From Bacteroidota bacterium (lineage in GTDB: Bacteria > Bacteroidota > Bacteroidia > JAFLBG01): DNA of 43,656 nucleotides. The translations under genes and the position numbers were made by a program. Each line of letters begins with the position of its first letter. Within the stretch, counting starts at the first letter, position 1. Under the pieces are notes generated by a model. That model worked only from the letters and a program-made list of their open reading frames with translations. It did not search any database and was not told the origin of the DNA. The stretch spans positions 1 through 43,656 of the forward strand of contig JAFLBG010000033.1 in NCBI GenBank assembly GCA_017303975.1, written 5' to 3'. Below are positions 12,167 through 43,655 of the stretch, piece after piece.

Positions 12167-12280
12167 TTGTGTGTTTGTTTAGTTTTTAAATTTAATATTT
12201 ACAACAATAATATTGTGATTGGATGTTGGTTTTATTTGGTAGTTGTGTGTTTTACAAAATGTATTTCTAATTTTGGTTGA

Positions 12281-12288
12281 CAAATATA
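12281..12288 (-). promoter_or_regulatory. Candidate -7 element for sppA
   Basis: CAAATATA on the plus strand reads TATATTTG on the minus strand, an exact TAnnTTTG match. It would start transcription about 105 bases before the sppA ATG, inside the 155-base divergent region shared with folK. No convincing -33 element is seen. Confidence 0.4.
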
Positions 12289-12321
12289 ACTGCTTAAAAG
12301 CTAATTACACTAATAAATTTT

Positions 12322-12828: not shown

Positions 12829-12908
12829 TGTTTTTTTAGTGGTTGAAATCCAGTCAACTATGTTAAAAGAATGTGAAAAAACTCCTTTTATATGTTAAAA
12901 ACATTGTA

Positions 12909-12916
12909 TAATATTG
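12909..12916 (+). promoter_or_regulatory. Candidate -7 element for the OmpA/TPR lipoprotein gene
   Basis: TAATATTG differs from TAnnTTTG at one base. It lies 24 bases before the ATG, giving a short leader without a Shine-Dalgarno sequence. Weak support. Confidence 0.3.
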
Positions 12917-12939
12917 CATCCGTATAATTAACACAAAAA

Positions 12940-16589: not shown

Positions 16590-16697
16590 CTAACTTTAGT
16601 TGTATTGCGTATTGCTTGATATTACCGCTACTATAAAGGTACTAAATAAATTTACTAGCTAGCAGTGGTTGGTATAAATAGAGAATTTGATAAAGAG

Positions 16698-17600
16698 CTA
16701 ATTAGCATGAATGATAACTAATTTATTGGGTTGCAGTTTTACTTTAATAGGGGCATCTCCTTTCAACTCGCCATCAATGTTTATGGTGGTATCGCCTTTA
16801 GAGGGGAGTATCTCAAACTCTTTTACTTTGTGAATCTTTACAAGAGGAGACAATACATGTTTACCGGCAAATATTTTAGGGAATAAGGAAAGCAATTGAA
16901 GAACAGAAACTTTTTTAATTAGCAGTACATCCACAAAACCATCGTTTACTAAGGCATTGGGGGCCATTTTCATTCCTTTGCCGGTATGTATTGTGTTGCA
17001 AGCTAATAAAAAGCACCAGTCATCTTCGGCTTGTGTATTGTCTAGTCGAATTTGGGCACGATAGTTTTTGTTTTTTATTATCTCTAGTATAGAAGCAATG
17101 TTGTACCGCGCAGACCCTGCTATTCGTAGCTTTTCAGCTGTTTTGTTTATGGTGGCAACTAATCCGTAACCAATTATATTAAAAGAATATATTTTTTGAT
17201 TGGATGTTTCAATTTCTAATATGTCTAGCGTTTGGGTATTTCCCTTTGTAAAAACTGCAATACTTTTTTCTAAATCTAAAATATTTAAATCGTGACAAAG
17301 TGAATTACCGGTACCGGCAGGGAATAAAAACAAAGGGGTAGTGTAGTTAAAGTTTGGATTGTTGCAAACACCATTTACAACCTCATGGAAAGTGCCATCT
17401 CCGCCAATTACACCTATTTTAGAATAAACAGAAAGGTCTGTTGAGGATAGATGTTTTATAATATGTCCTGCCTGTTTACTAACAAAAATAGCAACTAGCG
17501 TGTTGCTAGATTCGGTTGTTTTTTTTACATGATTAGCAAACGATACTCCGTTTCTTATTCCTGCAACAGGATTTACTATAAGTAGTATTGAGCTATTCAA
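16698..17600 (-). CDS. Diacylglycerol/lipid kinase family protein
   Basis: 300 residues of the DAGK catalytic family (YegS/BmrU/DgkB-like), which phosphorylate diacylglycerol or related lipids. Key motifs: NPVAG near the N-terminus, the nucleotide-binding GVIGGDGTFHEVVNG, PAGTGNSLCHDL, and ACNTIHTGKGMKMAPNALVNDGFVDV near the active site, ending in a beta-sandwich with INIDGE. Start is TTG, two bases after the ABC-F stop (TAATTTTG), which indicates translational coupling. No closer ATG fits the family start. Confidence 0.88.
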   Translation of the reverse strand: MNSSILLIVNPVAGIRNGVSFANHVKKTTESSNTLVAIFVSKQAGHIIKHLSSTDLSVYSKIGVIGGDGTFHEVVNGVCNNPNFNYTTPLFLFPAGTGNSLCHDLNILDLEKSIAVFTKGNTQTLDILEIETSNQKIYSFNIIGYGLVATINKTAEKLRIAGSARYNIASILEIIKNKNYRAQIRLDNTQAEDDWCFLLACNTIHTGKGMKMAPNALVNDGFVDVLLIKKVSVLQLLSLFPKIFAGKHVLSPLVKIHKVKEFEILPSKGDTTINIDGELKGDAPIKVKLQPNKLVIIHAN

Positions 17601-26718: not shown

Positions 26719-28941
26719 TTAGCGACTAATAATTAGTTTAGAATATTCAGGACGAGACAACGAATTATTTCTAAAAAAATAAATTCCACAAGAAAAATTA
26801 GATAGGTTTAAATTAACTGTTTCATTACAGTTTATTTTTATTTTTTGTAATGATACCCCTGTTATGGTGAGTAATTCAATTTCAGTGTTACTTGAGCAAA
26901 TTCCAATTTGTTTTATGGTTACTTCGTTTTCAGCAATAGTGGGGTAAACTATAAATGATTTAGTCGGTAAAGCCTTTGAACTCTCTACGGTTGTATTTAC
27001 GCCCCCCATATATAGCGCAACTCCTCCGGTATTTGTGCCTAATAGTAAATCGAGATAGTTGTCGTTGTTTAAGTCATTCAAGAAAGGTGCAGATTTTGGA
27101 CTTTCCCAAATGTCTAAATACATGGAGTCAATTATATTGAAGGTGCCACTTAAATTATTGCTAATGTTGTCATATACATATATGCTTCCGTATTCAGAGC
27201 CCACAAACAGTTTAAACGTATTACTTTGTTTAAAAAGAAAGGGTGTGCTTGACCCTACAATGGTTGTGATAGGCTTATTTACTTTTACATTACCAAAATT
27301 TTGTGATACTAAGGAAAAGGTTGCAACACTTGTACTGCCAATATTTTCGTAATAGTTCAAATTTCCACCTAATTCTCCAATTACCAAATCTAACAAGCCA
27401 TCTTCATTCGCATCAACCAGCTGTGGCGTTGCATTGCTACCTACATCTATACTTTGATAATTAGCCTGACTTAAAACAAACGATGCAGGATTAGAAGCTC
27501 CGGCTGTATTGGTAAATAGATTCAGTTTTCCGGTGCTTTCTCCAATAAGCATGTCTGTATCTCCATCTCCGTCTATATCTCCAAATGTAGGATGGATGCT
27601 TAGAAAATTATAAGCGCCAATAGAAGCATAATCGCGTGTAATTAAGTTGAATTTTGGATTTGTAGCAGTGCCGGTATTTTCATACAATGTTAAGGTAGAT
27701 TGAAAACCCCCACTTTGCTGAAAGTAGCCATAGTTTCCTATTACAAGGTCTTGTAAATTATCTGCATTGTAGTCGAATGTAGCAGGATGTGCATTTTCTC
27801 CGGCATCAATCATTCCATCTTGCAAAAAATTATCTTGGAGGTGGCTAAATGCTGTATTGTTAGATGTGCCTATGTTTTTATAAAGCCAAACACTTTTAAA
27901 ATTTTCTGAAATATTGGGTGCACTAGGTGTTACAATAAGATCGTTTAAATTATCATTGTCAATATCAACACTGTATCCTGTCGGAAATACGGATAAATTT
28001 ACGGCAACGGAGTTGGTAGGAAAGGTTGGTTGTTGCGCTATCATTTTAGCGCCACTGCTAGTTCCTCCATTGGTAAGCATTACAAGGTTTTTAAAAGAAA
28101 TGTCACCAATAATAAGCTCTTTGTCGTTGTCTCCGTCTAAATCTAAGGCAAGTAAAGAAGATCCTGCATGTTGCACTTGTTGTAAAAAATCAGAGGTGGG
28201 GACATAGTTCTTTTCAGGCGCTAAAACATTGAACGAACAGGTGTCATTCAATTGCACATTGTTATTAAAAGGGTTTTCGGAGAAATAACCCCAGCAGTTG
28301 TTTCTAAGCTCAAATGCCAAACTATCGCACGAACCATAAAGTTCTTTTGATAAATTTTTGTGGTATTCTACATAACTTCCTGCCAACTGAAATGTAAGTA
28401 CATCAATGTCTCCATCGCTATCTACATCTACAAGAGCGGGTATATCAACACTACTTACATATAGATTTAGAACGTTGTTAAACTGTTTCGATTTAACTTG
28501 CGATTTTACCAATGAAAACTGCAACCCTGATGATAAGCTAGAAGTGTTTTCATAAACAGCAAATCCGGCAATGGAGTAGGTAAAAATGTCTTCTTTGCCA
28601 TCACAGTTGTAATCTACTAGTAAAGCCCAATCGTGTAACGGAGGGAATTTAGTTTGAAACTGTGGAGCGTGCTTATAATTAGAAACTCCTATGCTGCCAA
28701 TATTGAGGTAGGTTGTAATTCTATTTCCACTTCTATCAAAAATGAATAAATCTTTTTTGCCATCTAAATCCAAATCAATGCTCGAAAATTGAGCGCTGTT
28801 AATACCTCCCGCCCACGCATTTTTTAATATAATAGAGTTTTCTTCCACCTTTATGGTGTCTTGGCGTGTAAAGAAAGGTTGGGCATAAGCCACCTCCACC
28901 CAAAGAAAAAATAAATACAAAAATCGGTTACAATATATCAT
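26719..28941 (-). CDS. Secreted FG-GAP/VCBS-repeat protein with T9SS type A sorting domain
   Basis: 740 residues. After a signal peptide (cleavage near AYA-Q, about residue 20), a beta-propeller-like region carries at least nine Ca-binding loops of DxDxDG type, such as DLDLDGKKDL, DVDSDGDIDVL, DIDGDGDTDMLIG and DLNNDNYLDLLLG. The last 85 or so residues (from about 655, FIVYPTIAENEVTI to YSKLIISR) form a Por-secretion/T9SS type A sorting domain. It is exported to the cell surface or medium by the type IX system. No binding partner is implied by its neighbours. No terminator separates it from the abutting convergent gene. Confidence 0.92.
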   Translation of the reverse strand: MIYCNRFLYLFFLWVEVAYAQPFFTRQDTIKVEENSIILKNAWAGGINSAQFSSIDLDLDGKKDLFIFDRSGNRITTYLNIGSIGVSNYKHAPQFQTKFPPLHDWALLVDYNCDGKEDIFTYSIAGFAVYENTSSLSSGLQFSLVKSQVKSKQFNNVLNLYVSSVDIPALVDVDSDGDIDVLTFQLAGSYVEYHKNLSKELYGSCDSLAFELRNNCWGYFSENPFNNNVQLNDTCSFNVLAPEKNYVPTSDFLQQVQHAGSSLLALDLDGDNDKELIIGDISFKNLVMLTNGGTSSGAKMIAQQPTFPTNSVAVNLSVFPTGYSVDIDNDNLNDLIVTPSAPNISENFKSVWLYKNIGTSNNTAFSHLQDNFLQDGMIDAGENAHPATFDYNADNLQDLVIGNYGYFQQSGGFQSTLTLYENTGTATNPKFNLITRDYASIGAYNFLSIHPTFGDIDGDGDTDMLIGESTGKLNLFTNTAGASNPASFVLSQANYQSIDVGSNATPQLVDANEDGLLDLVIGELGGNLNYYENIGSTSVATFSLVSQNFGNVKVNKPITTIVGSSTPFLFKQSNTFKLFVGSEYGSIYVYDNISNNLSGTFNIIDSMYLDIWESPKSAPFLNDLNNDNYLDLLLGTNTGGVALYMGGVNTTVESSKALPTKSFIVYPTIAENEVTIKQIGICSSNTEIELLTITGVSLQKIKINCNETVNLNLSNFSCGIYFFRNNSLSRPEYSKLIISR

Positions 28942-29061: not shown

Positions 29062-30174
29062 ATGCTGATGACTTCAAAAAAATATTATTGTTTCTTTTTT
29101 TTGTTTTGGATACTAGTGTCTATTGGTTTAGCGCAAACACCATCCAAACATAAGCCATTGTTTATCGAGCAGAAAAATTTAGACCCAAAATCGGTACAAA
29201 AGAATAAAACTCACGAGAAAGAAGTTTCGGCTGTAAAAAGAACATCCGTAAGGTTTGTGGTTTCAGATATTTCTAAGGGTACACCGCTTGATAGTCCGCC
29301 AACTATTGTAGATGAATTATCCGGAGAAAAAATAGAGCCAACTAGATTGAGTGATGGAGAGTATGATATTTTCATTGAGACTAATAAAATATACAAGGTA
29401 GAATGTAAGGTAGAAGGCTACAAACCCTTTGTTAAATCTGTAAACATAAGCAAAGAGGCAAAAGGAGAAGATAATCGGTTTCAACTAGAGCTTACCCCAT
29501 TTACCAAAAAAACATCTGTGAAAATTGTAGTAGTAGATGAAGTAAAAGCGCTACCTATTGATTATATGCCAACCGTTACAGATGAATTGACAGGAAAAAA
29601 AGCAGAAATAAAAAAGTTAGCAGATGGAGAATACGAAGTATATATTGAGAAGGATAAACTGTATAAAGTAGAGTGCAATGCCATTGGATACAAGGCTTTT
29701 GATAAACCTGTAAATATTAGTAAGGAAGTAAAAGGAGAAGACAACAGATTTCAAATTTTACTAACACCACTAAAAGTAGGAGAGAGTTTTATTCTCAAAA
29801 ACATCTATTTTCACCCCAATACACCGGTTTTTAAATCAGAATCAAATAAAGAACTTCAAAATTTGTATAAGTATATGGCTTCAAATCCGGAGGCTGTTAT
29901 TTCTATCGAGGGGCATACAAATTCCAACAGATACATAAAACGAGAAAAACGGAGAGCCGAAATGGGTGGCAAATGGGCTTTTCATGGCACTGCAAAAAAA
30001 TTATCAAAAAAACGTGCATCGGAAGTAAAAGATTTTTTAAATAAAAAAGGAGTAGAGCAAAAGCGTATTAAAACCAAAGGTTGGGGCGGAGATCAGGAAC
30101 TTTACCCTGAACCCAAGAATTTTCAAGAGAGTTTGAAAAACATGCGTGTTGAGGTACACATTTTAAAAATGTAG
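29062..30174 (+). CDS. OmpA-family protein with two tandem PEGA/CarboxypepD-reg-like repeats
   Basis: 370 residues. Signal peptide to about residue 24 (IGLAQ); an ATG two codons in (29068) is an equally good start. Two homologous beta domains at 61-147 and 151-237 are in exact 90-residue register (DGEY, YKVEC, KGEDNRFQ). An OmpA C-terminal domain follows at about 240-370 (ILKNIYFHPNT, IEGHTNSNR, LSKKRASEVKDFL, MRVEVHIL). The usual peptidoglycan-contacting Asp of GHTD is Asn287; the conserved Arg318 remains but is about 15 residues further away than usual. It opens the fimbria-like cluster and probably provides a wall anchor. An imperfect -7 (TAAATTTA) lies just upstream. Confidence 0.86.
   Translation: MLMTSKKYYCFFFLFWILVSIGLAQTPSKHKPLFIEQKNLDPKSVQKNKTHEKEVSAVKRTSVRFVVSDISKGTPLDSPPTIVDELSGEKIEPTRLSDGEYDIFIETNKIYKVECKVEGYKPFVKSVNISKEAKGEDNRFQLELTPFTKKTSVKIVVVDEVKALPIDYMPTVTDELTGKKAEIKKLADGEYEVYIEKDKLYKVECNAIGYKAFDKPVNISKEVKGEDNRFQILLTPLKVGESFILKNIYFHPNTPVFKSESNKELQNLYKYMASNPEAVISIEGHTNSNRYIKREKRRAEMGGKWAFHGTAKKLSKKRASEVKDFLNKKGVEQKRIKTKGWGGDQELYPEPKNFQESLKNMRVEVHILKM
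29242..29502 (+). repeat. First copy of a 270-bp in-frame repeat in the OmpA-family gene
   Basis: Encodes residues 61-147. Shares DELSG/DELTG, DGEYD/DGEYE, YKVEC and KGEDNRFQ with the second copy, in exact 90-residue register with no gaps. Confidence 0.85.
29512..29772 (+). repeat. Second copy of the 270-bp in-frame repeat
   Basis: Encodes residues 151-237. A third, more diverged copy of the same domain is in the next gene, before its OmpA domain (DELTGKEVA, YRVECTAIGYKPFEK). Confidence 0.85.
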
Positions 30175-30184
30175 TTAAAAGGAA

Positions 30185-31756
30185 GTGAAAAGAATTATAC
30201 AGATTTTTATTTTTTTGATGGTGCTTCAAGCTTCTATTTTGTATTGCCAATCCAATAAGAAAAAGTACGAAGGCACCGGCTCAGTATCAGAATTTGTAAT
30301 GCCTTCGCAAGCTAAGGTAATAGGTCATTTCGATTTGTTTTACGAAACTCAAATGCCCAATTTGCCAGACGATAAACGGTCTTTTTGGTATAAAATGGTG
30401 TTTAATAAAGATTGCTTTTTTAAGTTTAATTTGTTTCCTCTTCTTACTACAGACAGATACGATTTTAGGCTATATAAAATTCCCGAAAATTTAAATTTTT
30501 GTTATGCAATAACGGAAAATAAAATAGAATCAATTACAAATGTTAAAGTAAAACGAGAGTTTGCCGATTCGGCTCAATCAAAGGAGTTTAGAGCGGGACT
30601 AGTATATATAAAAGAGGTGCAAGTAAAACGAGGAGATGCAATTTATATTGAGATTGTAAATTTGTGGGGGAGTGATATTGGGCACATTATCGATTTTAAT
30701 ACCTGCGATTATTCATATGTCTTAAAAGCAACAAAAGAAGGAGCTCCTGTAATTAAAGCCGATAGTTCCAAGTTAGAAGCGTTCGATAAAGAGTTGAAAT
30801 CTAATTTAAGTGAAGGAATTGCTAACATCAAAGAAATTTTGTGCCCTGAAAATGGAAAGGTTATTCAATTGTCTTCAATAACCTTTAATCCCAAAGGGGT
30901 AGACATAATACCTAAATACTCATTAAACGGATATGAAAGTCAAACGTTACCCGGAACAAAAGCTATATTACCTGTAAAAACGGGTACTGCATCAATTTCT
31001 TCGGTAAAATTTAATACTCCGCCCAAGTCATCAGTAACTACCGAAACAGTTTCTGTGGCAAAAAAAGATTCTTTATTGTATAAGCCCGTGCGTATAAGGA
31101 GTAAAATTATTGACAGTATAAAAGGAGTTGCTGTTGATGTTGCAATTAAAATAATTGATGAGCTTACAGGTAAAGAAGTTGCCATTGCAAAAACTGGAAA
31201 GCCTGGAGAGTACTTATTCAATGTAGATAATACAAAAAAATACAGAGTAGAATGCACCGCAATTGGCTATAAACCCTTTGAAAAAACAATTGAAATAGCA
31301 GATGTAGTAACGAAAACAAATTCAAATATATTCAATCTGAAATTAGAGCCACTTACTGCCGGGCAAACATTTATTCTTCGAAATATCCAGTTTCATGCAA
31401 ATACATACGTAACAAAGTCGCAATCGAAACATGAGCTGGATAGATTGTATAAATACATGAAGGATAATCCAACTGTAATAATTGAAATTTCCGGACATAC
31501 CAATGGGAACAAAAAAATTGCTCCCGACCCGCTAAAAGCAAAGCTTGGAAAGGAATGGTCTTTTAGTGGAAGTAGCAAAAAACTTTCGTATTTGCGTGCA
31601 CTAGAAATAAAAGAGTACCTTACAAAAAAAGGAATAGACGGTAAAAGAATAAAAGTAGAAGGGTATGGTGGAAACAAACCATTAATACCTGATGCTAATA
31701 CGCAAGAGCAGATGCAAAAAAATATGCGAGTAGAGGTGTTATTGTTAAAAGCATAA
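30185..31756 (+). CDS. OmpA-family protein with N-terminal beta domain, paralogue of the preceding gene
   Basis: 523 residues starting at GTG, 10 bases after the preceding stop. Signal peptide to about residue 21 (ASILYCQ). Residues 25-240 form a domain I do not recognise (FDLFYETQMP, YDFRLYKIPENLNFCY); about 290-385 is a PEGA/CarboxypepD-reg-like domain related to the neighbour's repeats; 390-523 is an OmpA domain (FILRNIQFHANT, ISGHTNGNKK, KKLSYLRALEIKEYL, KNMRVEVLLL). It has the same Asp-to-Asn change and the same insertion length as its neighbour, so these predate the duplication. It is likely a second peptidoglycan-facing component of the cluster. Confidence 0.86.
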   Translation: MKRIIQIFIFLMVLQASILYCQSNKKKYEGTGSVSEFVMPSQAKVIGHFDLFYETQMPNLPDDKRSFWYKMVFNKDCFFKFNLFPLLTTDRYDFRLYKIPENLNFCYAITENKIESITNVKVKREFADSAQSKEFRAGLVYIKEVQVKRGDAIYIEIVNLWGSDIGHIIDFNTCDYSYVLKATKEGAPVIKADSSKLEAFDKELKSNLSEGIANIKEILCPENGKVIQLSSITFNPKGVDIIPKYSLNGYESQTLPGTKAILPVKTGTASISSVKFNTPPKSSVTTETVSVAKKDSLLYKPVRIRSKIIDSIKGVAVDVAIKIIDELTGKEVAIAKTGKPGEYLFNVDNTKKYRVECTAIGYKPFEKTIEIADVVTKTNSNIFNLKLEPLTAGQTFILRNIQFHANTYVTKSQSKHELDRLYKYMKDNPTVIIEISGHTNGNKKIAPDPLKAKLGKEWSFSGSSKKLSYLRALEIKEYLTKKGIDGKRIKVEGYGGNKPLIPDANTQEQMQKNMRVEVLLLKA

Positions 31757-31761
31757 TTTTG
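31754..31761 (+). promoter_or_regulatory. Candidate -7 element before the chaperone-like gene
   Basis: TAATTTTG, then CGTAT, overlaps the stop of the second OmpA gene, 50 bases before the chaperone ATG. A second TAATTTTG copy lies at 31777-31784. Either could start a transcript covering the chaperone and subunit genes. Confidence 0.4.
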
Positions 31762-31810
31762 CGTATTATTGAGTCTTAATTTTGTTGTGAAAAATCCAAT
31801 TTTATATAAT

Positions 31811-32743
31811 ATGAAAATGATGAATTTTAAAAGAAATCTAATTACTTCACTCTTGATTTGTGTTAGTGTTTTTGTTTTTGCTCAAGGAGCTGCAACTAAT
31901 AGTGCAGCGCAAGACACAACGAAGAAAAAATCTCGTTTTGGTCAATCAGAGAATTCTACACAAAAACCCGATTCTTTAATTACAGATATGGGAGTAGCAG
32001 TTTCTCCATCTTCTTTGCGTTTTAGAGCAAAGCCTGGTTCTACGGAAACTCGTTACGTTACTATAACAAACGACACCAAAAAATCTGAAAAATTTAAAAT
32101 CTCTTTTGCTGATTATGACATGAGTAATAAGGGAGCTGTAACACAAGTTCCATTTGGTAAAAACCACGAGTACGGATTAACGAAGTGGATTAGCGCTACT
32201 CCTAGTTTTGTGGAATTAAGACCTGGGCAAGCACAAAAAATTGCTATAACAATTAACGTTCCTGACGAACCCAATGCCTACAGGTCCGCATGGTGTTTAA
32301 TGATGGTGGATGAAACAACCGAAAAAAAATACATCACCCCTCCAAATGATGGCAAGTCGAATATGGTGATGGGGGTTATTCCGGTATTTGGATTTGGCGT
32401 TTATATTTTTCAGAACCCTCCGAATGTTAAAATAAATAAAGTAGAAATAACCAAATTCTATTTTAATTACGACAAGGAAAATAAATACGTGTACGTAAAT
32501 ACTAGAAATGTAGGTGATGGAATAGGTTTTTGTAAAGCCTATGTAGAGGTTAATAATTTGAATACCGGATACAAGGAGAAATTGTTCTTAAAACAGTTTA
32601 CCATCTTCCCTGGCATGGAAAGAACATTAGATTACCAATTGCCGGGTAACATTGGAAAAGGTAATTATATAGCCACAGCAGTACTTGATTTTGGTAGCGA
32701 TGAAGAAGTGGAAGCTGCAGAGTTAGAATTTAAAATAGAATAA
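31811..32743 (+). CDS. PapD-like two-domain periplasmic chaperone, probable fimbrial-type
   Basis: 310 residues. Start at 31811 gives a good signal peptide (MKMMNFKRNLITSLLICVSV, ending FAQ); an earlier TTG only adds a poor leader. After a low-complexity linker, domain 1 (about 60-205) reads like PapD-type chaperones: AVSPSSLRFRAKPGSTETRY then VTITND on the first strands, FVELRPGQAQKIAITI on strand F1, YRSAWCLMMV on G1, and IPVFGFGVYIF closing the domain. Domain 2 (207-310) is a second Ig-like sandwich with LPGN and YIATAVLDFGSD. It precedes two subunit-like genes and an usher-like barrel gene. I infer a donor-strand chaperone; a general Ig-like secreted protein is the alternative. Confidence 0.66.
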   Translation: MKMMNFKRNLITSLLICVSVFVFAQGAATNSAAQDTTKKKSRFGQSENSTQKPDSLITDMGVAVSPSSLRFRAKPGSTETRYVTITNDTKKSEKFKISFADYDMSNKGAVTQVPFGKNHEYGLTKWISATPSFVELRPGQAQKIAITINVPDEPNAYRSAWCLMMVDETTEKKYITPPNDGKSNMVMGVIPVFGFGVYIFQNPPNVKINKVEITKFYFNYDKENKYVYVNTRNVGDGIGFCKAYVEVNNLNTGYKEKLFLKQFTIFPGMERTLDYQLPGNIGKGNYIATAVLDFGSDEEVEAAELEFKIE

Positions 32744-32902
32744 TTTTAAAATTTTGTAACCTTATTGTATTGTTAGGAGTATAACAACACAAAAAAGGAA
32801 ACATGAATAGTTCTTAAAATAAAAACAGAAAAAAATCCTTAGAAAGTTTTTACTTTCAAAAAAATGTATATATTTACTGAATTCTTAACTAAAAAAAACA
32901 AT

Positions 32903-33754
32903 ATGAGAAATTTTACTAAATCATCTGCTCTTCTTGGTGCACTTGCACTAGCAGGCAGTTCGTTTGCACAATTGCAAGACGAAAAAAACGTAACCATTAC
33001 GATGGATTTACAACCGGTACTTCAATTAAAAATGGAAGGACCTGATCAGTTAGACTTTACTTTTGATGAAATCAGTGAGTATTATGCTGGTATCACAAAG
33101 TACGGAGCAACACAATTAAAAGTGAGTGCATCTGTATCTTGGGATTTATGGGCAGCTGGTTTATCGCAAGGTAACGTAGCGAACTTTTGTTGGGATAACC
33201 AAGTACAGTACCAAGCAGCAACAGGTGGTGTTGATGAAATTCCAATCACAGCATTGGAGCTTCACCAATTCCCTGCAAATCCTGCTATAGCTGCTACTTG
33301 TGCTAACACAATAGCTCAGTCTAGTGATTATAGCCGTCCTTTCCAAATTAGATCCGCGGCTAACGTAGTTTCTAGTAACAACACTATTTATGCACCAAGT
33401 CCTGCTTCTCCGTATTCTTCTCCTACCTCAACAGGGGTTTTGGGTACTTCTGAGAAATATATTGCAGGTGGAACAGGTACTATTGCTAACTGCCAAATAG
33501 CAGGTGGAAGTTATTTACTTAACTCTACAGCAACTTTAGCAGCAGGTAGCTACTACTACGTACTTGATTACAGAATTTTGCCAGGTTTACCGGTGGTATT
33601 CCCTGCGCATGATGATGCAACAACAATCAATACAACTGCAGCTTATGTAACTAACGCAGATGGCGCTACTACATTGATTGACACTGCAACTGACTATGCT
33701 CAGCCTGGTGTTTATACAATGTATGTAAAATACATCTTAACACAAGACCAATAG
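32903..33754 (+). CDS. Probable major fimbrial-type subunit, secreted beta-sandwich protein
   Basis: 283 residues; the ATG at 32903 is chosen because it directly precedes a clean signal peptide (cleavage after SSFAQ). The mature N-terminus QDEKNVTITMDLQPVLQLKM is an alternating strand like the donor strand of CFA/I-type pilins. It has a central Ser/Thr/Ala-rich region and ends PGVYTMYVKYILTQDQ, a terminal alternating strand with a penultimate-type Tyr as in chaperone-usher subunits. It is related to the next gene at both ends (LDFTFDEISEYYAGIT; LDYRILPGLP). The strong terminator just after it suggests a separately terminated, abundant product. The role is inferred from context. Confidence 0.62.
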   Translation: MRNFTKSSALLGALALAGSSFAQLQDEKNVTITMDLQPVLQLKMEGPDQLDFTFDEISEYYAGITKYGATQLKVSASVSWDLWAAGLSQGNVANFCWDNQVQYQAATGGVDEIPITALELHQFPANPAIAATCANTIAQSSDYSRPFQIRSAANVVSSNNTIYAPSPASPYSSPTSTGVLGTSEKYIAGGTGTIANCQIAGGSYLLNSTATLAAGSYYYVLDYRILPGLPVVFPAHDDATTINTTAAYVTNADGATTLIDTATDYAQPGVYTMYVKYILTQDQ

Positions 33755-33768
33755 GTATTAAAAATATT

Positions 33769-33804
33769 AAAAAAAGGGGTTGATTTTTCAACCCCTTTTT
33801 TTTT
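33769..33804 (+). terminator. Terminator between the two subunit-like genes
   Basis: GGGGTTGA pairs with TCAACCCC around a TTTT loop, preceded by an A run and followed by nine T. It begins 14 bases after the first subunit stop. In chaperone-usher operons such an intra-operon hairpin keeps the major subunit in excess. Confidence 0.92.
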
Positions 33805-33846
33805 GATATTTTCTATCAAATTAATTCTTCGTTAGACAAAAACAGT

Positions 33847-33854
33847 TATATTTG
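33847..33854 (+). promoter_or_regulatory. -7 element giving a possibly leaderless transcript for the second subunit
   Basis: TATATTTG is an exact TAnnTTTG match ending 6 bases before the ATG at 33861. With the usual distance to the start of transcription, the mRNA would begin at or next to the start codon. It would drive the second subunit and the barrel gene after the terminator. Confidence 0.45.
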
Positions 33855-33860
33855 TTACTA

Positions 33861-34508
33861 ATGATAAAGACGTACACAACCTTTTTTCTATTTGTTTGTT
33901 TTGTCTTCAAAATGTTCGCACAGCCTGCTTGTGTGGTTTCTCCTACAAGTTTTTGCAATCCTGTTGGAGGGGGCTCTGTTTACCTCATGTCCACTTCATC
34001 AAATGTAGATTTAACATTCGATTCTTTTGGTAAATTTGTTGGAGGTATAACTCAAAGTGGAGGAACTGTTCTAAAGTTAGCAATAACAGAAGCTGCAGCT
34101 CCCTGTAGATGGCAATTGCACGCAAATGTTGATAATGGAGGTGGGTTAACACCTGTAACAGAATGGGAGCTTATTACTCCTTATGGGGCTGCTGGACCAC
34201 CGCACCCTACCGTTGATTTATTAGATATGCGAATTCGTAACCAATGTAATACATCTCTTTCCGGAACTTCATTTGTTGATATTCCTAACATCAATCAAAC
34301 TATTGATATTGTTGAGAACCCTGGTGCGGATGTTTTGCCCGGAGCCGGTACATGTGCACTTAATCAAAATGTAAATACAGAAGGTACATACTTAACAGAT
34401 TATGGTCAGTATGCATTTACGGTAGATTACCGAGTATTACCAACATTAACCCTAAGGCCTGGTATTTATCAATTAACAGTACGGTATTGCTTAACAGAAG
34501 ATAACTAG
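33861..34508 (+). CDS. Probable minor fimbrial-type subunit, secreted beta-sandwich protein
   Basis: 215 residues with a signal peptide to about residue 20 (FKMFAQ). It is homologous to the preceding subunit gene: VDLTFDSFGKFVGGIT and the end VDYRVLPTLTLRPGIYQLTV followed by RYCLTEDN parallel that protein, but it lacks a 37-residue insertion present there near the C-terminus. Six Cys (24, 32, 82, 129, 165, 210) could form disulfides, unlike its neighbour. The next gene's GTG start follows its TAG with no gap, so the two are translationally coupled. An adaptor or tip subunit for the barrel protein fits this pairing. Confidence 0.6.
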   Translation: MIKTYTTFFLFVCFVFKMFAQPACVVSPTSFCNPVGGGSVYLMSTSSNVDLTFDSFGKFVGGITQSGGTVLKLAITEAAAPCRWQLHANVDNGGGLTPVTEWELITPYGAAGPPHPTVDLLDMRIRNQCNTSLSGTSFVDIPNINQTIDIVENPGADVLPGAGTCALNQNVNTEGTYLTDYGQYAFTVDYRVLPTLTLRPGIYQLTVRYCLTEDN

Positions 34509-37500
34509 GTGAAATTTTATTTCGTAAAAATAATCCCCCTTTGTTTTTTACTTGCTGTTTTTTCGGCATTGGGTTTGCATGCCCAACAACCTGTTACAAC
34601 ACCAACAGATAGTACCTCACAGCCAATTTCTTCAACTGCACCTACAACTGTTGATACAGCTGCAAAGCCAGCTCCTCCAAAGTTAAGAGGCAGTATGTTA
34701 AGAGGTCTGAAGCCAATTCCTGATACCATAAAAAAAATATTTGCTCGCTTTGATACACTTTCTATGAGTATTAGAGAGGGTGAAATTATTTCGAAAACCA
34801 TGAGAGTGGATAATAGAACCTCTAAAACCTTAGATTTTAGTGTAGATATCTCTTATCCCGCAGGATGGAAAACATTAAACAATAGAAAAAAACTATATAC
34901 TGTTTTGCCAGGAGATAGTTTGTTTGTTCCTGTTAGAATAATCCCCCACGGAAAGATTAGAGGAAATACGAAATATTTAATTAACGCATACATTCTTGAA
35001 AAGGATAGCACACCTGTAGCTACAGGTTATTTTTACACCTCTAGAGAGCGTGTTAGTTCATGGGATATATCTGTACTACCAACTGAAAAAATTTATTTTA
35101 AAAACAAAGACAATAGTTCGCACTTTAAGTTAAGTGTTATGAATACTGGTAATGAAGACCAAGAGCTATTGTTAGATATGGAGAATATCAGACAAGAGAT
35201 AATGATTACCGATACTACAGATAGAGTAATAAAAAAATCGATACACGATTTTAAGTTGAAACCCAATCAAGATACCATATTTGCATATAACGTAAAATAC
35301 ACTTCCGGACTTAGAAATTACAAAATCATAGATTCGGAAAATTACAGACCCAATAGCTCCAGCGAACAAAAAGTATATACCATATTTGCAAAAACGAGCG
35401 AACCTAAAATTAGAGGAGGTAGAGCATTAACAAAAGCAAAAAAAATAGACTTTGTAAAGTTGGGCGATAACCTAAAAGCAAATCAATATGGGTATTCTGT
35501 CTTCCCTATTATTATGGATGCCAATCTTACCAACATTTTAGGCGGCCAACCAATACTCAACTTAAATTTTAGAGGTAATTCAGTTTTGGAAAACGGAGCC
35601 TATCTAACCTATTTTTCTCAGTTTTTCTTTTCTAATTATTATTATACCAATCAATATTTAACATCAAGTTTTCATTATGTAGGTTATTTTAAAGAAAATT
35701 ATTTTTTTGAATTGGGAGATGTTGGAGGAGTTGGAGGTGGTGCATATTCTGTGCCAGGAAGAGGGATGACAGCTGGGTATAGGTTTCTACCACAACATAA
35801 AATAGCAGGTTTTTATACTAGAAGTCCTCGTTTTTTTGCCCCAACAAATAGAGACGGTTTTGGGTTGGTTTATTCATTTTTACCAACTTTCGGAAATTAT
35901 AATGTTGGTTATTCTAGAGCAAATAATAGTGCTACAAAATTGGTTTCTAATTACTTTAGTTTGAATGGTTCTTATAAAATTGCATCAAGACATTCTGTAA
36001 ATGCAGGCGGTGTTTTTGTAAATCATAAATCGTCTCAAACAGGAAATATTTTTACAAGATCAGGATTTCAGCTTTTTGGTGGCTATACAGGGTCTTACTT
36101 TGGTGATAGAAGAATGCGATCTAGTATTTCCGGTAGTTATATTTCTAAATTTTTTGACCCATATAATGGTGGTGATATGTTAATAGTAAACCATACAAGT
36201 AGCTATGCTCATAAAAAAGTTTGGAATTTTCAGTTGACAAATAACTATAATAACAGGAAATACATTTCTCTTTTAAATACTTCCAATCCCTATCAGCAAG
36301 TTAGACAGGAGAATATGATTAATGCGACACGAAGATTTGATTCAAGATTTGTTGGACTAGGAGCTTTTTATAATTTTTCAAGGTTCGATGCTTTTAGATT
36401 TCATACACGTGGTATTAATCTTAATGTTGGTAATTATGATTATGAAACGAATACGCTTGTTAGTTCGAATGCAATGGCTGGCTATACTCGTTCTATAGAC
36501 GAAAAGCCTACTCCGAAAGATTATTTTTTCTTTCAATTTTTTACATTAATGCGCTATAGAGTGTTAAGCGCAAATTTCAGATATACTTACGGAAATTTAA
36601 CTCCATATCAAAATGCATTGTTAAACGGCAGCATGTATCCACAAACAATAGCAGCTTCAGTTAATTATCAGTACCAGTTTAAAAATCCTCATTTGGTGCT
36701 TCAAAATTATATTAACTATACGTTCTTCAATACATTCAAACGACATAGTTTTGGATACACACCCGACTTGTTTTATTTTACAGATAATGGATGGCGATTT
36801 AGAGTAACTGCCGGTTTCTTTATTAGCAGCTCCAATGCATCTAGTGAGAGACAGTCGCTGAACTCTACAATTTCTGAGGGATACAAGGAATCTAAGAATC
36901 TTATAACGAAAAGTGTGCTATTGAATTTTGGTGTGCGCAAGGAGTTTGGTGTTCCAATTCCTTTTTCTAAGCGCAAGTTTTATTCAACTGATTTTGTCGC
37001 CTTTATTGATTTGAATGGAAATGGTAAAAAAGAAGTTGGCGAATATAACTTAGAAAATATTGTTTTAAAATTAGATAAATGGGAGGTTTTGACTAACGAG
37101 AAAGGAAAAGCCACTATAAAAAACGTTCCAACCGGTAATTACAAACTTAGTGCATTTTCGTTAGAGGAGTTAGAAGGCTATTTTCCAAATATAGAAGAAG
37201 AACTGGATGTTATAATAGATAGAGTAGGAGATAAGCATGTGCCTATACCATTTGTAAAGGGTATAAAGATATATGGTAAAGTGGTGCTAGATAGAGAAAA
37301 GGTTAGTGAGAATACAGATGTTACACCTATTGATTTAACTGGCATTAAGATAAGTGCCATGAATGGAAAAGTAATTCATACACTTACCGGAAAAGACGGA
37401 GAGTTTAATTTTTATGTTCCTTTCGGGAAATATACATTAAATATGGATGAAAATGTGTTAAGCGATAGATGGAAGATTTTGCAAAATAATATTGAGTTGG

Positions 37501-38087
37501 AATTAGACAAGAATACCGAGAGTTTGTTTATTACATTTTATATTGTAGAAAAGCGAAGAAAAATTAATAAAAAAACATTTGGTGCAGATGGCAAGCAAAT
37601 AGGCGATTCGTTGCTAACTGCCAAAAATGCTGCTGATAATGGTAAAGGAGGGAAAGGTGCAAAAGGAACTAAGGGTGGTAAAGGTGCGAAAAACGGTAAA
37701 GCAGGAGCTGATAAAAATGCCGCAGCCAATGCTACTAAAGGCGGGAAACAAAATGTTGACTACGATGTAATAAAAGACGCATTCTTGAAAGATTTACAAG
37801 ATGCAACTAAACTAAAAGGATTGGTTTATACCATTCAAATAGGTGCTTTCCAAAAGCCATTAAGTCCTGCTACATTTAAGGATTTAAAAGGATTGATGTA
37901 CGAACGTATTGACAATAATTTTGTGAGAATTTCCGGTGGTCAGTTTATCAGTGAATCTTCTGCTACAATTGAGCGAGATAACTTGATTCGTGTAGGCTTT
38001 GTAGATGCCTTTGTTTCTGCATACTACAATGGTAAAGTAATTAGTCTTCAAGAAGCTTCTCAGATTAAGAAAACACTTGTTAAGTGA
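34509..38087 (+). CDS. Usher-like outer-membrane barrel protein with Ig-like, SdrD-B-like and SPOR domains
   Basis: 1192 residues, GTG start immediately after the previous stop. Signal peptide 1-25 (HAQQ), Pro/Thr linker to about 60, two Ig-like domains (about 75-180, 185-300), then about 315-815 in short amphipathic strands rich in Tyr, Phe, Asn and Gly (LGDVGGVGGGAYSVPGRG), the size of a fimbrial usher barrel. Next come an SdrD-B-like domain (825-890, FIDLNGNGKKEVGEYNLE, VPTGNYKLSAF), a second such domain (915-1015), a Gly/Lys-rich linker (1040-1082) and a SPOR domain (1104-1177, YTIQIGAFQKPL). SPOR domains bind denuded peptidoglycan. No named family is recognised for the whole; an usher role is inferred from barrel size, flanking domains and gene order. 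Confidence 0.6.
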   Translation: MKFYFVKIIPLCFLLAVFSALGLHAQQPVTTPTDSTSQPISSTAPTTVDTAAKPAPPKLRGSMLRGLKPIPDTIKKIFARFDTLSMSIREGEIISKTMRVDNRTSKTLDFSVDISYPAGWKTLNNRKKLYTVLPGDSLFVPVRIIPHGKIRGNTKYLINAYILEKDSTPVATGYFYTSRERVSSWDISVLPTEKIYFKNKDNSSHFKLSVMNTGNEDQELLLDMENIRQEIMITDTTDRVIKKSIHDFKLKPNQDTIFAYNVKYTSGLRNYKIIDSENYRPNSSSEQKVYTIFAKTSEPKIRGGRALTKAKKIDFVKLGDNLKANQYGYSVFPIIMDANLTNILGGQPILNLNFRGNSVLENGAYLTYFSQFFFSNYYYTNQYLTSSFHYVGYFKENYFFELGDVGGVGGGAYSVPGRGMTAGYRFLPQHKIAGFYTRSPRFFAPTNRDGFGLVYSFLPTFGNYNVGYSRANNSATKLVSNYFSLNGSYKIASRHSVNAGGVFVNHKSSQTGNIFTRSGFQLFGGYTGSYFGDRRMRSSISGSYISKFFDPYNGGDMLIVNHTSSYAHKKVWNFQLTNNYNNRKYISLLNTSNPYQQVRQENMINATRRFDSRFVGLGAFYNFSRFDAFRFHTRGINLNVGNYDYETNTLVSSNAMAGYTRSIDEKPTPKDYFFFQFFTLMRYRVLSANFRYTYGNLTPYQNALLNGSMYPQTIAASVNYQYQFKNPHLVLQNYINYTFFNTFKRHSFGYTPDLFYFTDNGWRFRVTAGFFISSSNASSERQSLNSTISEGYKESKNLITKSVLLNFGVRKEFGVPIPFSKRKFYSTDFVAFIDLNGNGKKEVGEYNLENIVLKLDKWEVLTNEKGKATIKNVPTGNYKLSAFSLEELEGYFPNIEEELDVIIDRVGDKHVPIPFVKGIKIYGKVVLDREKVSENTDVTPIDLTGIKISAMNGKVIHTLTGKDGEFNFYVPFGKYTLNMDENVLSDRWKILQNNIELELDKNTESLFITFYIVEKRRKINKKTFGADGKQIGDSLLTAKNAADNGKGGKGAKGTKGGKGAKNGKAGADKNAAANATKGGKQNVDYDVIKDAFLKDLQDATKLKGLVYTIQIGAFQKPLSPATFKDLKGLMYERIDNNFVRISGGQFISESSATIERDNLIRVGFVDAFVSAYYNGKVISLQEASQIKKTLVK

Positions 38088-38225
38088 TATTTTCTTAACT
38101 ATTAATAGTTCGCCTAGATGTTTTCTAAAAATAATTATACTAAGATTTTAATATGTTTCGTATGCGTACATTAACCAATAATACCACGCTTAAAATATAA
38201 ATTAGGTTATTTCGCATTAACGGGG

Positions 38226-38444
38226 TATATTTGCGTACTTCTTTTGAAGATTGTATCACAATCTATTTTGTAACTTCTACTTGCAATTTGATCATTTTTA
38301 CACTTTTCTTAATTGAGTAATAGGTGTTTTACCATTTTTGGGCACTATAATGTCTACACTAAAAAAACATAGGTGTGGTAGTAATAATAAATAACAATTA
38401 ATCAATTGCCTTCTTGTATTAAGTGGGCGCAAAACAAAAACAAA
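38226..38444 (+). promoter_or_regulatory. Promoter element and long 5' leader of the cold-shock gene
   Basis: TATATTTG at 38226-38233, followed by CGTA, is an exact -7 match. It leaves a leader of about 205 bases before the cold-shock ATG, the kind of long untranslated region that regulates cspA-type genes by temperature-dependent folding. The rest of the 357-base gap (38088-38225) holds a 14-base palindrome AACTATTAATAGTT at 38097 and nothing else I can assign. Confidence 0.45.
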
Positions 38445-38633
38445 ATGAATAAAGGAACAGTAAAATTTTTCAACGATGCCAAAGGCTTCGGATTTATTAA
38501 AGGTGAAAACGGACAAGAAATATTTGTTCACGTATCAGGAATAAAAGAAGATATCCGTGAGAACGATCAAGTAACATACGATACACAAGAAGGTAAAAAA
38601 GGTCTTAATGCAGTAAACGTTTGTTTAGCATAA
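38445..38633 (+). CDS. Cold-shock domain protein
   Basis: 62 residues, a single cold-shock domain. Start at 38445 gives the family N-terminus MNKGTVKFFNDAKGFGFIKG; an upstream in-frame ATG adds non-family residues. RNP1 is KGFGFI and RNP2 is IFVHVS. It binds single-stranded RNA/DNA as an RNA chaperone. It is monocistronic, with a long leader and its own terminator. Confidence 0.95.
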   Translation: MNKGTVKFFNDAKGFGFIKGENGQEIFVHVSGIKEDIRENDQVTYDTQEGKKGLNAVNVCLA

Positions 38634-38650
38634 TTTATAGGCAAATTCTT

Positions 38651-38685
38651 AAAAAAAAGGCAACCCAATTGGGTTGCCTTTTTTT
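38651..38685 (+). terminator. Terminator after the cold-shock gene
   Basis: GGCAACCC pairs with GGGTTGCC around an AATT loop, flanked by eight A and seven T. It starts 18 bases after the stop. Confidence 0.93.
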
Positions 38686-38813
38686 ATAACAAAATTGTCC
38701 TTTCTTTAAGAGTATTTAGTATTAGTAATACTTTCAAACTAATTCAAAAAAACTAAAAGCCATTTTAGTTTTTAGTTGTAAATAATTGAATTTTTCAACT
38801 GTCTATTTAGGGT

Positions 38814-40982: not shown

Positions 40983-43655
40983 CTACTTGATTAGGCTTAA
41001 AGTACCCGTTTTTTCCACCTTTTCTCCAGCTTTTGTGGTGCCAATAAACTTATAAGCAAAAGCTTGGGTATCTAGTTCTTTTTCTTGATACGTGCCGTCC
41101 CATTTCTCTTTTCCGGTTATGGTTTCAAAAACTTTTTCGCCCCAACGGTTATAAATTATGAAAATAAATTCACTAAAACATTCGTACCCTTTAATTTCAT
41201 AAGTATCGTTTTGTTTGTCTTTATTGGGTGAGAAGGCATTTGGCATAAACAGTTCTTTTTTGTTGCAATCAATTTCTATGGTTACTGTTACAGTAGAAAT
41301 GGAGCTGCATCCACTAACATCAGTAACAGTTACTGTATAAACTGTTGTTACTAAAGGCGTAGCCGTGGGATTTTGACAGTTGGTACAACTAAGCGAAACT
41401 GACGGAGACCATAGATAGGTGCCACCACCACTTCCGTTTAGAATAGTGGATCCTCCAGTGAGGACAGTTGTATTTGGACCTGCACTGGCAGTAGGTGCTG
41501 GATTTACAGTAACAACAACGGTTTCGATACCTTCACAAATACTCGCATTTTGACCACCAACAGTATATGTTGTGGTTGTAGTTGGCGTTACAGAAATAGT
41601 AGTTGTATTTGCTCCTGTACTCCACTGATAGCTACTTGCACCAAATGCACTTAATGAAACTGTTTTTCCTTCGCAAATGGTAGTGTCTGTGCTTGCAGTT
41701 ATTGTAGGAGTTGGTAATGCAGAAATAGGAAATTGTAGCATATCTAAACATCCACCTGCGTTTATCCCTACTAAGGTATATGTACTTCCGGAAGTAGGTG
41801 AAATAGTTAAGGTAGCACCGGATGTGGTACCAGATGGTGTAGCCCAAATATATTGTGACGCTCCAGAACCTGATAATGTTGAAGAACTTCCAATACAAAC
41901 AGATGTATTCCCAAGAACACTTACCGTTGGAGAGCTTACTGTAATCGCAACAGTAGAGGTTACTGCACATGAATTAGAACTAAGTGCCGTAACAGAGTAA
42001 ACTGTGCTACTAGATGGCGAAAATGTAATAACCGCCCCGGTAGTAGAAGAAATATTTGTATTCGGAGACCAAGTATAACTTGCGGCCCCACTTGCAGTAA
42101 GAGTAGTATTGCCTCCTGGGCAAATTTGTGTTAGCCCGCTAATTGTTACCGAAAAATTATCGATTGTAACCGCAACTGTTGCTTCTGCTGTACACGAAAA
42201 TGCACTTGTTCCAACTACTGTATAGGTTGTGTTGGCTGTTGGCGATGCAGTTACACTAGCACCCGAAGTAGTATTAAGTCCTGTTGATGGAGCCCAACTG
42301 TAGGTGTTAGCACCCGATGCGCTGAGTATGGTTGAACTTCCTTGACAAACAATGGCTGTACTTGGCAATGTAATTGTTGGGGATGGATTTACTGTTAATG
42401 TAAATACGGTAGAGGCAGAGCATCCTCCCGAGTTTGTTCCGGTTAGTGTATAGGTAGTTGTTGTAGTTGGAGACAATGTAACCGGAGAGCCAATGGTACT
42501 GCTTGTTGCGCTTGTCCAGTCGTAAGAACCTGCGCCTGCACCGCTTAAAGAAACGCCTATACCTTGACATGTAACCGGATTTCCAATAAGGCTTACACTT
42601 GGATTGGCAACTGTAATAGTAAGTGTGGTGCTACTGCTACACCCACTGCCATTGCTAGCAGAAAGAGAATAAACCGTTGTACTGGCCGGAGAAAAAGTGA
42701 CTACAGCCCCCGTAGTTGATGATATATCTTGATTGGGTGACCATGTATAAGTGCTTCCTCCGCTTGCTGTTAGGGTAGTTTGAGAGCCCGGACAAATATT
42801 TTGATTGCCCGATATAACAACATTTATGCTGCTTACACTCACGGTAACTACTGCTGTATTTACACAGCCATTTGAACCTATGCCTAAAACAGTATAGGAT
42901 GTGGTAGCAGATGGTGTTGCATTAACACTAGCCCCCGATGTAGTATTTAAACCAGTTGCAGGTAGCCAACTATAAGAAGTGCCGCCACTGGCTGTTAATG
43001 TTACGGTACCTCCGGAACAAGCCACTGTATTTGAGCTGACTGAAATGGTGGGTTTGGCAAGCACAGTAAATGTTTTAACAGTTGTGTTAGAGCCTGAAGC
43101 GTTGGTAGCGGTAAGCGAAGCGTTATATACACCCGCAGTGTTGTAGCAAATATTAGTTGGGTTTTGTAATGTAGACGAAGTAGGTGTTGCACCCGGGAAG
43201 CTCCAAGCCCAAGATGTTGGCGTATTGGTACTCATATCGGTATAACTAACGCAATTACCCTCGCACACAGAAGCTGCAGAGATACTGAAGTTTGCTACTG
43301 GAGGGGTTGATGTTACTGTTGTGCTTAATATTACATTATCTATCGCAAAAGAAGGGTCTGTCCCCACATTATTGCCATTATTTACCCACAGAAATCCAAT
43401 CTTGACATTTGCATTATTATTTGCAGAAGCAGGAAGTACAATTGAGTGCGAAGCCCATACTCCCTGACCCAAAAATAGGGAAGTTCCACAAGCACCTTCA
43501 TTGCCACAGCCGAATAAAAAATGTGCGCAGTTTACCGTTGCAGGTTTTCCTAAAGAAGACCATGTTGTTCCATCAAAGTAAAAAATTTCACCATAATCAT
43601 TATTACCTTCCCCTGCCATTAGGTATTCAAAGGTCAATGTTATATTTGTTTTCCC
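40983..43655 (-). CDS. Giant Ig/PKD-repeat adhesin-like protein with T9SS type B sorting domain, 5' end outside window
   Basis: The frame is open to the right edge, so the N-terminus is missing; the TTG at 43637 is only an internal codon. Numbering from it, residues 1-110 resemble a jelly-roll (FDGTTWSSLG, FAIDNVILS), 114-193 a PKD domain (CVSYTDMSTNTP, WAWSFPGATP), 196-787 eight Ig-like repeats of about 75 residues, mostly with one Cys pair each, and 791-884 the gliding-motility-associated/T9SS type B sorting domain (FMPNAFSPNKDKQNDTY, IYNRWGEKVFE, WDGTY). It is exported by the type IX system, probably as a surface adhesin or fibre. Repeats 1-3 and 4-6 are a duplicated block. Confidence 0.92.
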   Translation of the reverse strand, partial: GKTNITLTFEYLMAGEGNNDYGEIFYFDGTTWSSLGKPATVNCAHFLFGCGNEGACGTSLFLGQGVWASHSIVLPASANNNANVKIGFLWVNNGNNVGTDPSFAIDNVILSTTVTSTPPVANFSISAASVCEGNCVSYTDMSTNTPTSWAWSFPGATPTSSTLQNPTNICYNTAGVYNASLTATNASGSNTTVKTFTVLAKPTISVSSNTVACSGGTVTLTASGGTSYSWLPATGLNTTSGASVNATPSATTSYTVLGIGSNGCVNTAVVTVSVSSINVVISGNQNICPGSQTTLTASGGSTYTWSPNQDISSTTGAVVTFSPASTTVYSLSASNGSGCSSSTTLTITVANPSVSLIGNPVTCQGIGVSLSGAGAGSYDWTSATSSTIGSPVTLSPTTTTTYTLTGTNSGGCSASTVFTLTVNPSPTITLPSTAIVCQGSSTILSASGANTYSWAPSTGLNTTSGASVTASPTANTTYTVVGTSAFSCTAEATVAVTIDNFSVTISGLTQICPGGNTTLTASGAASYTWSPNTNISSTTGAVITFSPSSSTVYSVTALSSNSCAVTSTVAITVSSPTVSVLGNTSVCIGSSSTLSGSGASQYIWATPSGTTSGATLTISPTSGSTYTLVGINAGGCLDMLQFPISALPTPTITASTDTTICEGKTVSLSAFGASSYQWSTGANTTTISVTPTTTTTYTVGGQNASICEGIETVVVTVNPAPTASAGPNTTVLTGGSTILNGSGGGTYLWSPSVSLSCTNCQNPTATPLVTTVYTVTVTDVSGCSSISTVTVTIEIDCNKKELFMPNAFSPNKDKQNDTYEIKGYECFSEFIFIIYNRWGEKVFETITGKEKWDGTYQEKELDTQAFAYKFIGTTKAGEKVEKTGTLSLIK
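41715..42380 (-). repeat. Second copy of a three-domain super-repeat
   Basis: Encodes residues 420-641. All six Cys (431, 482, 506, 557, 581, 630) match the first copy at a constant 224-residue offset. Confidence 0.85.
42387..43052 (-). repeat. First copy of a three-domain super-repeat
   Basis: Encodes residues 196-417 with Cys 207, 258, 282, 333, 357 and 406. Shared strings with the other copy include GLNTTSGASV and ISSTTGAV. Confidence 0.85.

Follow-up and report, generated by a model that had tools for sequence, protein, structure and literature searches.

Chaperone-usher pili, such as the Fim and Pap, CFA/I and ECP, and Csu fibres, are encoded by compact gene sets in which a two-domain PapD-like chaperone accompanies secreted subunits with an alternating N-terminal strand and an outer-membrane usher, a 24-stranded barrel with an inserted immunoglobulin (Ig)-like plug. 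The surface fibres of Bacteroidota include the type V (Mfa1/FimA) pili of Bacteroidales, which are made from lipoprotein precursors activated by a protease, without chaperone or usher. A donor-strand mechanism has been proposed for type V pili (PMC4789730). Archaic chaperone-usher systems are listed for Proteobacteria, Cyanobacteria and Deinococcus-Thermus and not for Bacteroidota, the same three groups forming the described range of the pathway (PMC4654587), and our searches of the open literature turned up no chaperone-usher system assigned to Bacteroidota. Here we describe a locus on a 43,656-nucleotide contig of a Bacteroidota genome (GCA_017303975.1, contig JAFLBG010000033.1; the window, which is the entire 43.7-kb contig) whose genes CHAP, SUB1, SUB2 and USH very probably encode a chaperone-usher-type pilus assembly system of this phylum.

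Two further described systems bear on this locus. The first comprises the Gram-positive WxL-interacting proteins (WxLIP; structures 9i1y and 9i25), which correspond to DUF916/DUF3324 (PMC10599100). The second is the TLP-1 filament, represented by TLP-1a and TLP-1b (PDB 9ikj and 9ikk), two cryo-electron microscopy (cryo-EM) entries that each contain 16 chains of a single sequence. The TLP-1 sequence was reportedly read from the map of an environmental filament (CryoSeek). To our knowledge, TLP-1 has no known operon, chaperone, usher or maker. The filaments, about 8 nm wide, presumably come from the pond water examined in CryoSeek (Wang et al., PNAS 2024).

Gene set and its conservation

The locus consists of six closely spaced plus-strand genes at 29062-38087, in the order OmpA1, OmpA2, CHAP, SUB1, SUB2 and USH, and all six open reading frames (ORFs) lie where a preliminary description of this DNA had placed them and on the same strand. 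The features of the four genes under study are as follows.

31769..32743, plus strand: CHAP, periplasmic PapD-like chaperone with two Ig domains (hhalign, PapD_N, Foldseek)
32363..32413, plus strand: predicted G1 donor strand of CHAP, NMVMGVIPVFGFGVYIF, residues 199-215 (17-residue strand in the model)
32864..33754, plus strand: SUB1, major subunit and TLP-1 homologue (phmmer, profile)
32975..33028, plus strand: SUB1 N-terminal extension, QDEKNVTITMDLQPVLQL, proposed donor strand (alternation, fixed spacing)
33707..33745, plus strand: C-terminal strand of SUB1, GVYTMYVKYILTQ, putative F strand at the edge of the open groove (high-confidence predicted strand)
33852..34508, plus strand: SUB2, minor subunit and proposed tip subunit (alignment of 35 homologues, hhalign, natural fusions)
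34509..38087, plus strand: USH, usher-like outer-membrane barrel flanked on each side by a pair of Ig-like domains (AlphaFold2, Foldseek)
34737..35300, plus strand: N-terminal Ig-like domain pair of USH, residues 77-264 (model strand pattern)
35370..36956, plus strand: USH barrel, residues 288-816 (model strand pattern)
36978..37550, plus strand: C-terminal prealbumin/CarboxypepD-reg-like pair of USH, residues 824-1014 (PF17802/PF13620/PF13715, strand pattern)

Translation of CHAP, SUB1 and SUB2 probably begins a few codons downstream of the listed starts (TTG for CHAP and SUB2), because in-frame ATGs coincide with the signal peptides; CHAP likely begins at the ATG at about 31811 and SUB1 at the ATG at about 32903.

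In a pattern search over 84,980 species genomes, SUB1 picked out 55 named loci in Bacteroidota, almost all of them in metagenome-assembled genomes. SUB1 served as the anchor for this survey, an alignment of all CHAP members being too diverse as a search query and a single-sequence CHAP search of genome contigs returning no match. Both CHAP and USH were present in 29 of the 30 named SUB1-anchored loci with sufficient flank, a co-occurrence far beyond chance, which answers in the affirmative the question, raised in the preliminary description, of whether the gene set co-occurs across Bacteroidota genomes. Gene order was CHAP-SUB1-SUB2-USH in 19 of these 30 loci and SUB1-SUB2-USH-CHAP in 5, with minor variants making up the remainder. 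Searching 60 genomes of the same class, we additionally found full-length or nearly full-length USH relatives in about 12, from different families, and the regions around them contained complete CHAP, SUB1, SUB2 and USH genes in the closer genomes and more diverged versions in others. The conserved core is thus CHAP, SUB1, SUB2 and USH.

Chaperone and proposed filament subunits

Homology of CHAP to pilus chaperones was recovered at the level of both profile and fold. A profile of 45 CHAP sequences aligned with eight E. coli K-12 chaperones across both domains and the full length (hhalign 91.3%, E 9.3e-7), PapD_N was found in 2 of 12 CHAP family members, and the CHAP half of a predicted structure matched YadV, FimC, CsuC, EcpB and CfaA in Foldseek at E-values from 1e-8 to 9e-11, in agreement with the PapD-like chaperone proposed earlier. 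Individual chaperone features follow the same pattern: the D1-strand proline, invariant in the superfamily (PMC4654587), is kept in 40 of the 45 sequences (alignment position P76) and aligns with the TPPLF proline of the K-12 chaperones, the terminal DFG of CHAP aligns with the DYG of the PapD family, and the G1 segment, a single 17-residue strand in the model, is hydrophobic at alternate positions throughout the 45 sequences (fraction 0.91-1.0). The positions of the basic residues that anchor the subunit carboxylate in classical chaperones (PapD Arg8/Lys112) hold non-basic residues in CHAP, as placed by hhalign. Arginine occurs at alignment position 103 in 18 of the 45 sequences and is a candidate counterpart of CsuC Arg89, the conserved arginine common to non-classical chaperones (PMC4654587).

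The top PDB match of CHAP lies elsewhere, in an Enterococcus faecium WxLIP that aligns over both Ig domains (profile E 0.001, fold E 9e-14); PF06030, the WxL-interacting protein family, matches 8 of 12 CHAP family members and is also the best, sub-threshold, Pfam hit of CHAP itself. These matches would suit a WxL/WxLIP-like surface complex in which CHAP, like WxLIP with WxL proteins, would stay with the subunits as a lasting structural partner and the barrel would be a mere anchor. We consider such a complex very improbable, since the TLP-1 entries contain a single protein species, which places CHAP outside the shaft, since the subunits have no WxL domain (no WxL family in SUB1 or SUB2 by Pfam) and since CHAP, with its 91% profile match to PapD-type chaperones, stops right after its second Ig domain, without the C-terminal membrane anchor or WxL partner of a WxLIP, and stands beside a filament protein and a large FimD-like outer-membrane barrel in nearly every locus. 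The closeness of CHAP to WxLIP proteins hints at an old link between these proteins and pilus chaperones.

SUB1 is a homologue of the TLP-1 protein. It matched 9ikj by phmmer at E 5.2e-38, its profile matched 9ikk at E 1.3e-71 along the entire mature chain, N-terminal extension included, and Foldseek aligned the two at 34% identity with a target-normalised TM-score of 0.72. A TLP-1 sequence search of 395 same-class genomes found relatives in 31, at up to 51% identity. The closest of these (51%) is part of an intact CHAP-SUB1-SUB2-USH operon, and nearly every other relative that we inspected has the same setting. From this homology and gene context, the four-gene operon family probably makes TLP-1-type filaments and is the leading candidate for their origin. 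That each TLP-1 entry has 16 chains of a single sequence indicates that the chaperone is not a shaft component.

The strand patterns of the subunits would suit a donor-strand system. In 29 of 30 SUB1 sequences exactly 30 residues separate the cleavage site from an FxFD motif, the N-terminal extension contains a strictly alternating strand (V-T-I-T-M-D-L-Q) across the 30 sequences, and the C-terminal strand contains an invariant PGVYTM. The corresponding extension belongs to the built TLP-1 chain, in which the stretch NVTVTMDLQPVLQL (9ikj/9ikk) may be the strand that completes the fold of a neighbouring protomer. SUB2 is homologous to SUB1 (hhalign 99.7%), as the preliminary description had recognised, and has four invariant cysteines in an alignment of 35 homologues; it has no alternating donor strand, and its start is variable, cysteine-bearing and in many members about 10 residues shorter. 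At six distinct loci (counting L032 and L050, which are one contig, once; L numbers denote surveyed loci) the SUB2 gene is replaced by one for a 441-461-residue protein in which a SUB2 domain leads and a SUB1 domain comes next, an arrangement that places the SUB1 donor strand directly behind the SUB2 domain. This order is as would be expected if SUB2 sat at the tip and were completed by the first SUB1.

Because CHAP and SUB1 share a reading frame, the DNA that runs from CHAP across the spacer into SUB1 could be read as one chain, with stops taken as residues, as a device for folding the two proteins together. The AlphaFold2 model of this read-through chain reached a pTM of 0.77, with 138 of 592 residues below pLDDT 50, and these fell in the spacer, the SUB1 signal peptide, the N-terminal extension and loops. 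The pTM despite these low-scoring residues suggests that the bodies of CHAP and SUB1 are confidently placed relative to each other, and an extension left unplaced in the model and built in the TLP-1 chain would fit donor-strand exchange.

Established Bacteroidota routes offer another explanation, in which SUB1 fibres are exported as type V (Mfa/FimA) pili or by the type IX secretion system (T9SS) and USH is an unrelated barrel. Bacteroidota do possess both routes, and neighbouring genes in the window resemble T9SS cargo, as judged from their sequence. We hold this explanation to be very improbable: the signal peptides of SUB1 and SUB2 are ordinary ones without a lipobox, neither protein has a T9SS C-terminal domain (NCBIfam) or a match to the FimA/Mfa families (Pfam, NCBIfam) that would relate it to type V pili, and the subunits remain beside the chaperone and USH across many families.

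Some candidate relatives of the subunits were rejected. Comparison of SUB1 by hhalign with FimA and with EcpA gave nothing, and DUF4402, considered as a candidate for the subunits, had neither a Pfam match nor a supporting paper that we could find. Pfam holds no family for SUB1 or SUB2, and NCBIfam has no match for CHAP, SUB1, SUB2 or USH.

Single SUB1 genes also occur apart from the operon. On another contig of the source genome (C50; L156, 5753-6592) there is a second, solitary SUB1 gene with no chaperone or usher nearby, and similar solo copies are found in L161 and L091; these may be alternative shaft proteins that rely on the main system for assembly.

The barrel and its usher-like architecture

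We modelled USH with AlphaFold2 without its linker and C-terminal SPOR-like domain (mean pLDDT 83.4), and obtained two Ig-like domains, about 28 long strands (residues 288-816) and a further two Ig-like domains, confirming the large barrel flanked by Ig-like domains that had been read from the DNA. In Foldseek, FimD chains took the first eight places among the PDB matches (E 5.7e-13 to 1.6e-10, alignments of about 800 columns), with PapC and unrelated barrels such as BtuB following at about 1e-6. The C-terminus of USH carries prealbumin/carboxypeptidase-regulatory-like domains in Pfam (PF17802/PF13620/PF13715), and the accepted alternative usher EcpC likewise has a CarboxypepD_reg-like C-terminal domain.

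Several observations weigh against reading the locus as a chaperone-usher system, most of them from the barrel. The predicted barrel has about 28 long strands, compared with 24 in ushers, and the model contains no 60-80-residue Ig insert that could be a plug; two N-terminal Ig-like domains stand in place of PapC_N. Target-normalised TM-scores to FimD are low (0.31-0.37), and BtuB also matches the barrel, at the weaker E-values given above. None of PF00577, PF13954 and PF13953 (or TcfC/CooC_C) was found by Pfam in 13 USH members, PF00577 was absent from the source genome and 19 relatives, and Pfam, NCBIfam and PDB sequence searches with USH returned no usher. Comparison of USH with the E. coli K-12 ushers by hhalign also gave no match; classical K-12 ushers and EcpC find each other poorly by this method as well, and because accepted ushers of different classes fail it, hhalign is not a fair usher test. 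To these points are added the closer PDB match of CHAP to WxLIP, the presumed pairing of the G1 strand with the SUB1 groove, which we took from model scores rather than from direct viewing, and the link between operon and filament, which is drawn here from genes, homology and models.

The barrel of 24 strands with a plug foreseen in the preliminary description is therefore borne out in its FimD-like fold and not in its strand number or plug, a departure that comes close to a finding which that description had itself named as refuting, and of the two profile comparisons it had suggested, that of the chaperone with PapD-type proteins succeeded and that of the barrel with K-12 ushers found nothing. 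From the model, we conclude that USH would work like an usher with a barrel differing in detail; the analogy is functional and architectural, and implies neither common descent with ushers nor membership of their family. With its roughly 28 predicted strands, its missing plug and no usher domain in Pfam, USH leads us to file the system as a variant that would work like chaperone-usher assembly but lies outside the described clades. More generally, the window proteins differ from those of chaperone-usher pili in matching no Pfam chaperone, usher or pilin family at cut-off and in their larger subunits.

A related possibility is that the chaperone and subunits are chaperone-usher-like by descent and that USH comes from another barrel family and acquired its Ig-like domains convergently. 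The missing sequence link to ushers, the limited specificity of a barrel-only fold match, and N-terminal domains that are Ig-like in a protein with no plug all speak for it. We nevertheless regard it as doubtful, because in whole-chain comparison FimD outranks other barrels by orders of magnitude in E-value and EcpC shares the CarboxypepD_reg-like C-terminal domain. Its mechanism is compatible with the chaperone-usher reading, the difference being one of ancestry.

Accessory genes, proposed assembly and implications

Three further features accompany the core genes in the window.

29062..30174, plus strand: OmpA1, secreted accessory protein; two carboxypeptidase-regulatory-like repeats, OmpA (peptidoglycan-binding) domain at the C-terminus (PF00691 E 6.5e-14)
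30185..31756, plus strand: OmpA2, accessory OmpA1 paralogue with its own N-terminal domain (PF00691 E 6.1e-12, neighbour clustering)
37806..38063, plus strand: accessory SPOR-like domain that ends USH (resembles C-terminal domains of relatives)

Both OmpA-type assignments made earlier thus hold at the level of Pfam. Clustering of neighbouring genes revealed that OmpA genes adjoin CHAP only in the nearest lineages, with a single OmpA2 orthologue upstream of CHAP in L031, L032, L047 and L048. The SPOR-like end of USH matches similar C-terminal domains in relatives, with PF05036 itself in 2 of 13 USH members, and is absent from most USH homologues, including shorter ones. We class the OmpA genes and the SPOR domain as accessories of this lineage. 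Peptidoglycan anchoring through both, which the preliminary description had put forward as part of the system, was rejected as a core feature: the two are confined to the closest lineages plus a few more and are missing from most homologous loci.

Other loci contain recurrent neighbours of their own. In L062 (13001-14563) and nine further loci (L036, L056, L069, L077, L078, L083, L084, L089 and L097), a secreted protein of about 520 residues is encoded directly after USH or, in some loci, immediately before CHAP. The L062 copy, on testing, contains four FKBP-type prolyl isomerase stretches, and the protein is likely a co-encoded folding factor. M1-family peptidase-like proteins, mostly of about 1000 residues, lie near USH in L034 (12801-15911, where the family was tested) and seven further loci of one lineage. 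In L040 we observed a divergent version of the locus in which tandem, seemingly near-identical short subunit genes (11687-13080 and 16634-16999) adjoin CHAP and USH, with no SUB2 match.

Elsewhere in the window, about 700 bases between USH and a minus-strand accD-like gene (38088-38813) contain no ORF of at least 100 amino acids. Two minus-strand genes (40983-43637 and 26719-28941) encode secreted repeat proteins with C-termini resembling T9SS-type sorting domains, and T9SS export is therefore probably also operating in the same genome.

From the gene set, homologies, fold matches, strand patterns and SUB2-SUB1 fusions, we infer the following route for a chaperone-usher-type system. Subunits would reach the periplasm via their signal peptides, where CHAP would lend its G1 strand to the open groove of each subunit's incomplete Ig fold. 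USH, with its barrel and periplasmic Ig-like domains, would receive the chaperone-subunit complexes and thread the subunits out; as each SUB1 arrives, its alternating N-terminal strand would displace the chaperone strand in the preceding subunit. SUB2, without a donor strand, would begin the fibre and occupy its tip, and the shaft would be a SUB1 polymer of the TLP-1 kind. In the source lineage, the OmpA proteins and the SPOR domain may additionally tie the base to peptidoglycan. Of the diverged chaperone-usher-like system originally suggested for Bacteroidota, the core is upheld by its conservation, chaperone homology, folds and TLP-1 homology, and the anchoring and the details of the barrel are not.

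On balance, we lean toward a separate Bacteroidota chaperone-usher class with a larger, plug-less usher, standing beside the classical, alternative and archaic classes and making the orphan TLP-1 filaments of pond water. In the subunit and barrel families, nothing but the barrel's accessory end domains matched Pfam or NCBIfam, so these proteins probably appear in annotations as hypothetical. If this reading is true, a gene cluster and a phylum could be named for an environmental structure that has had no owner. A Bacteroidota version would also widen the evolutionary range of the chaperone-usher pathway and offer a differently built usher barrel, and a gene cluster and host phylum for a solved filament family would open its function to genetics.

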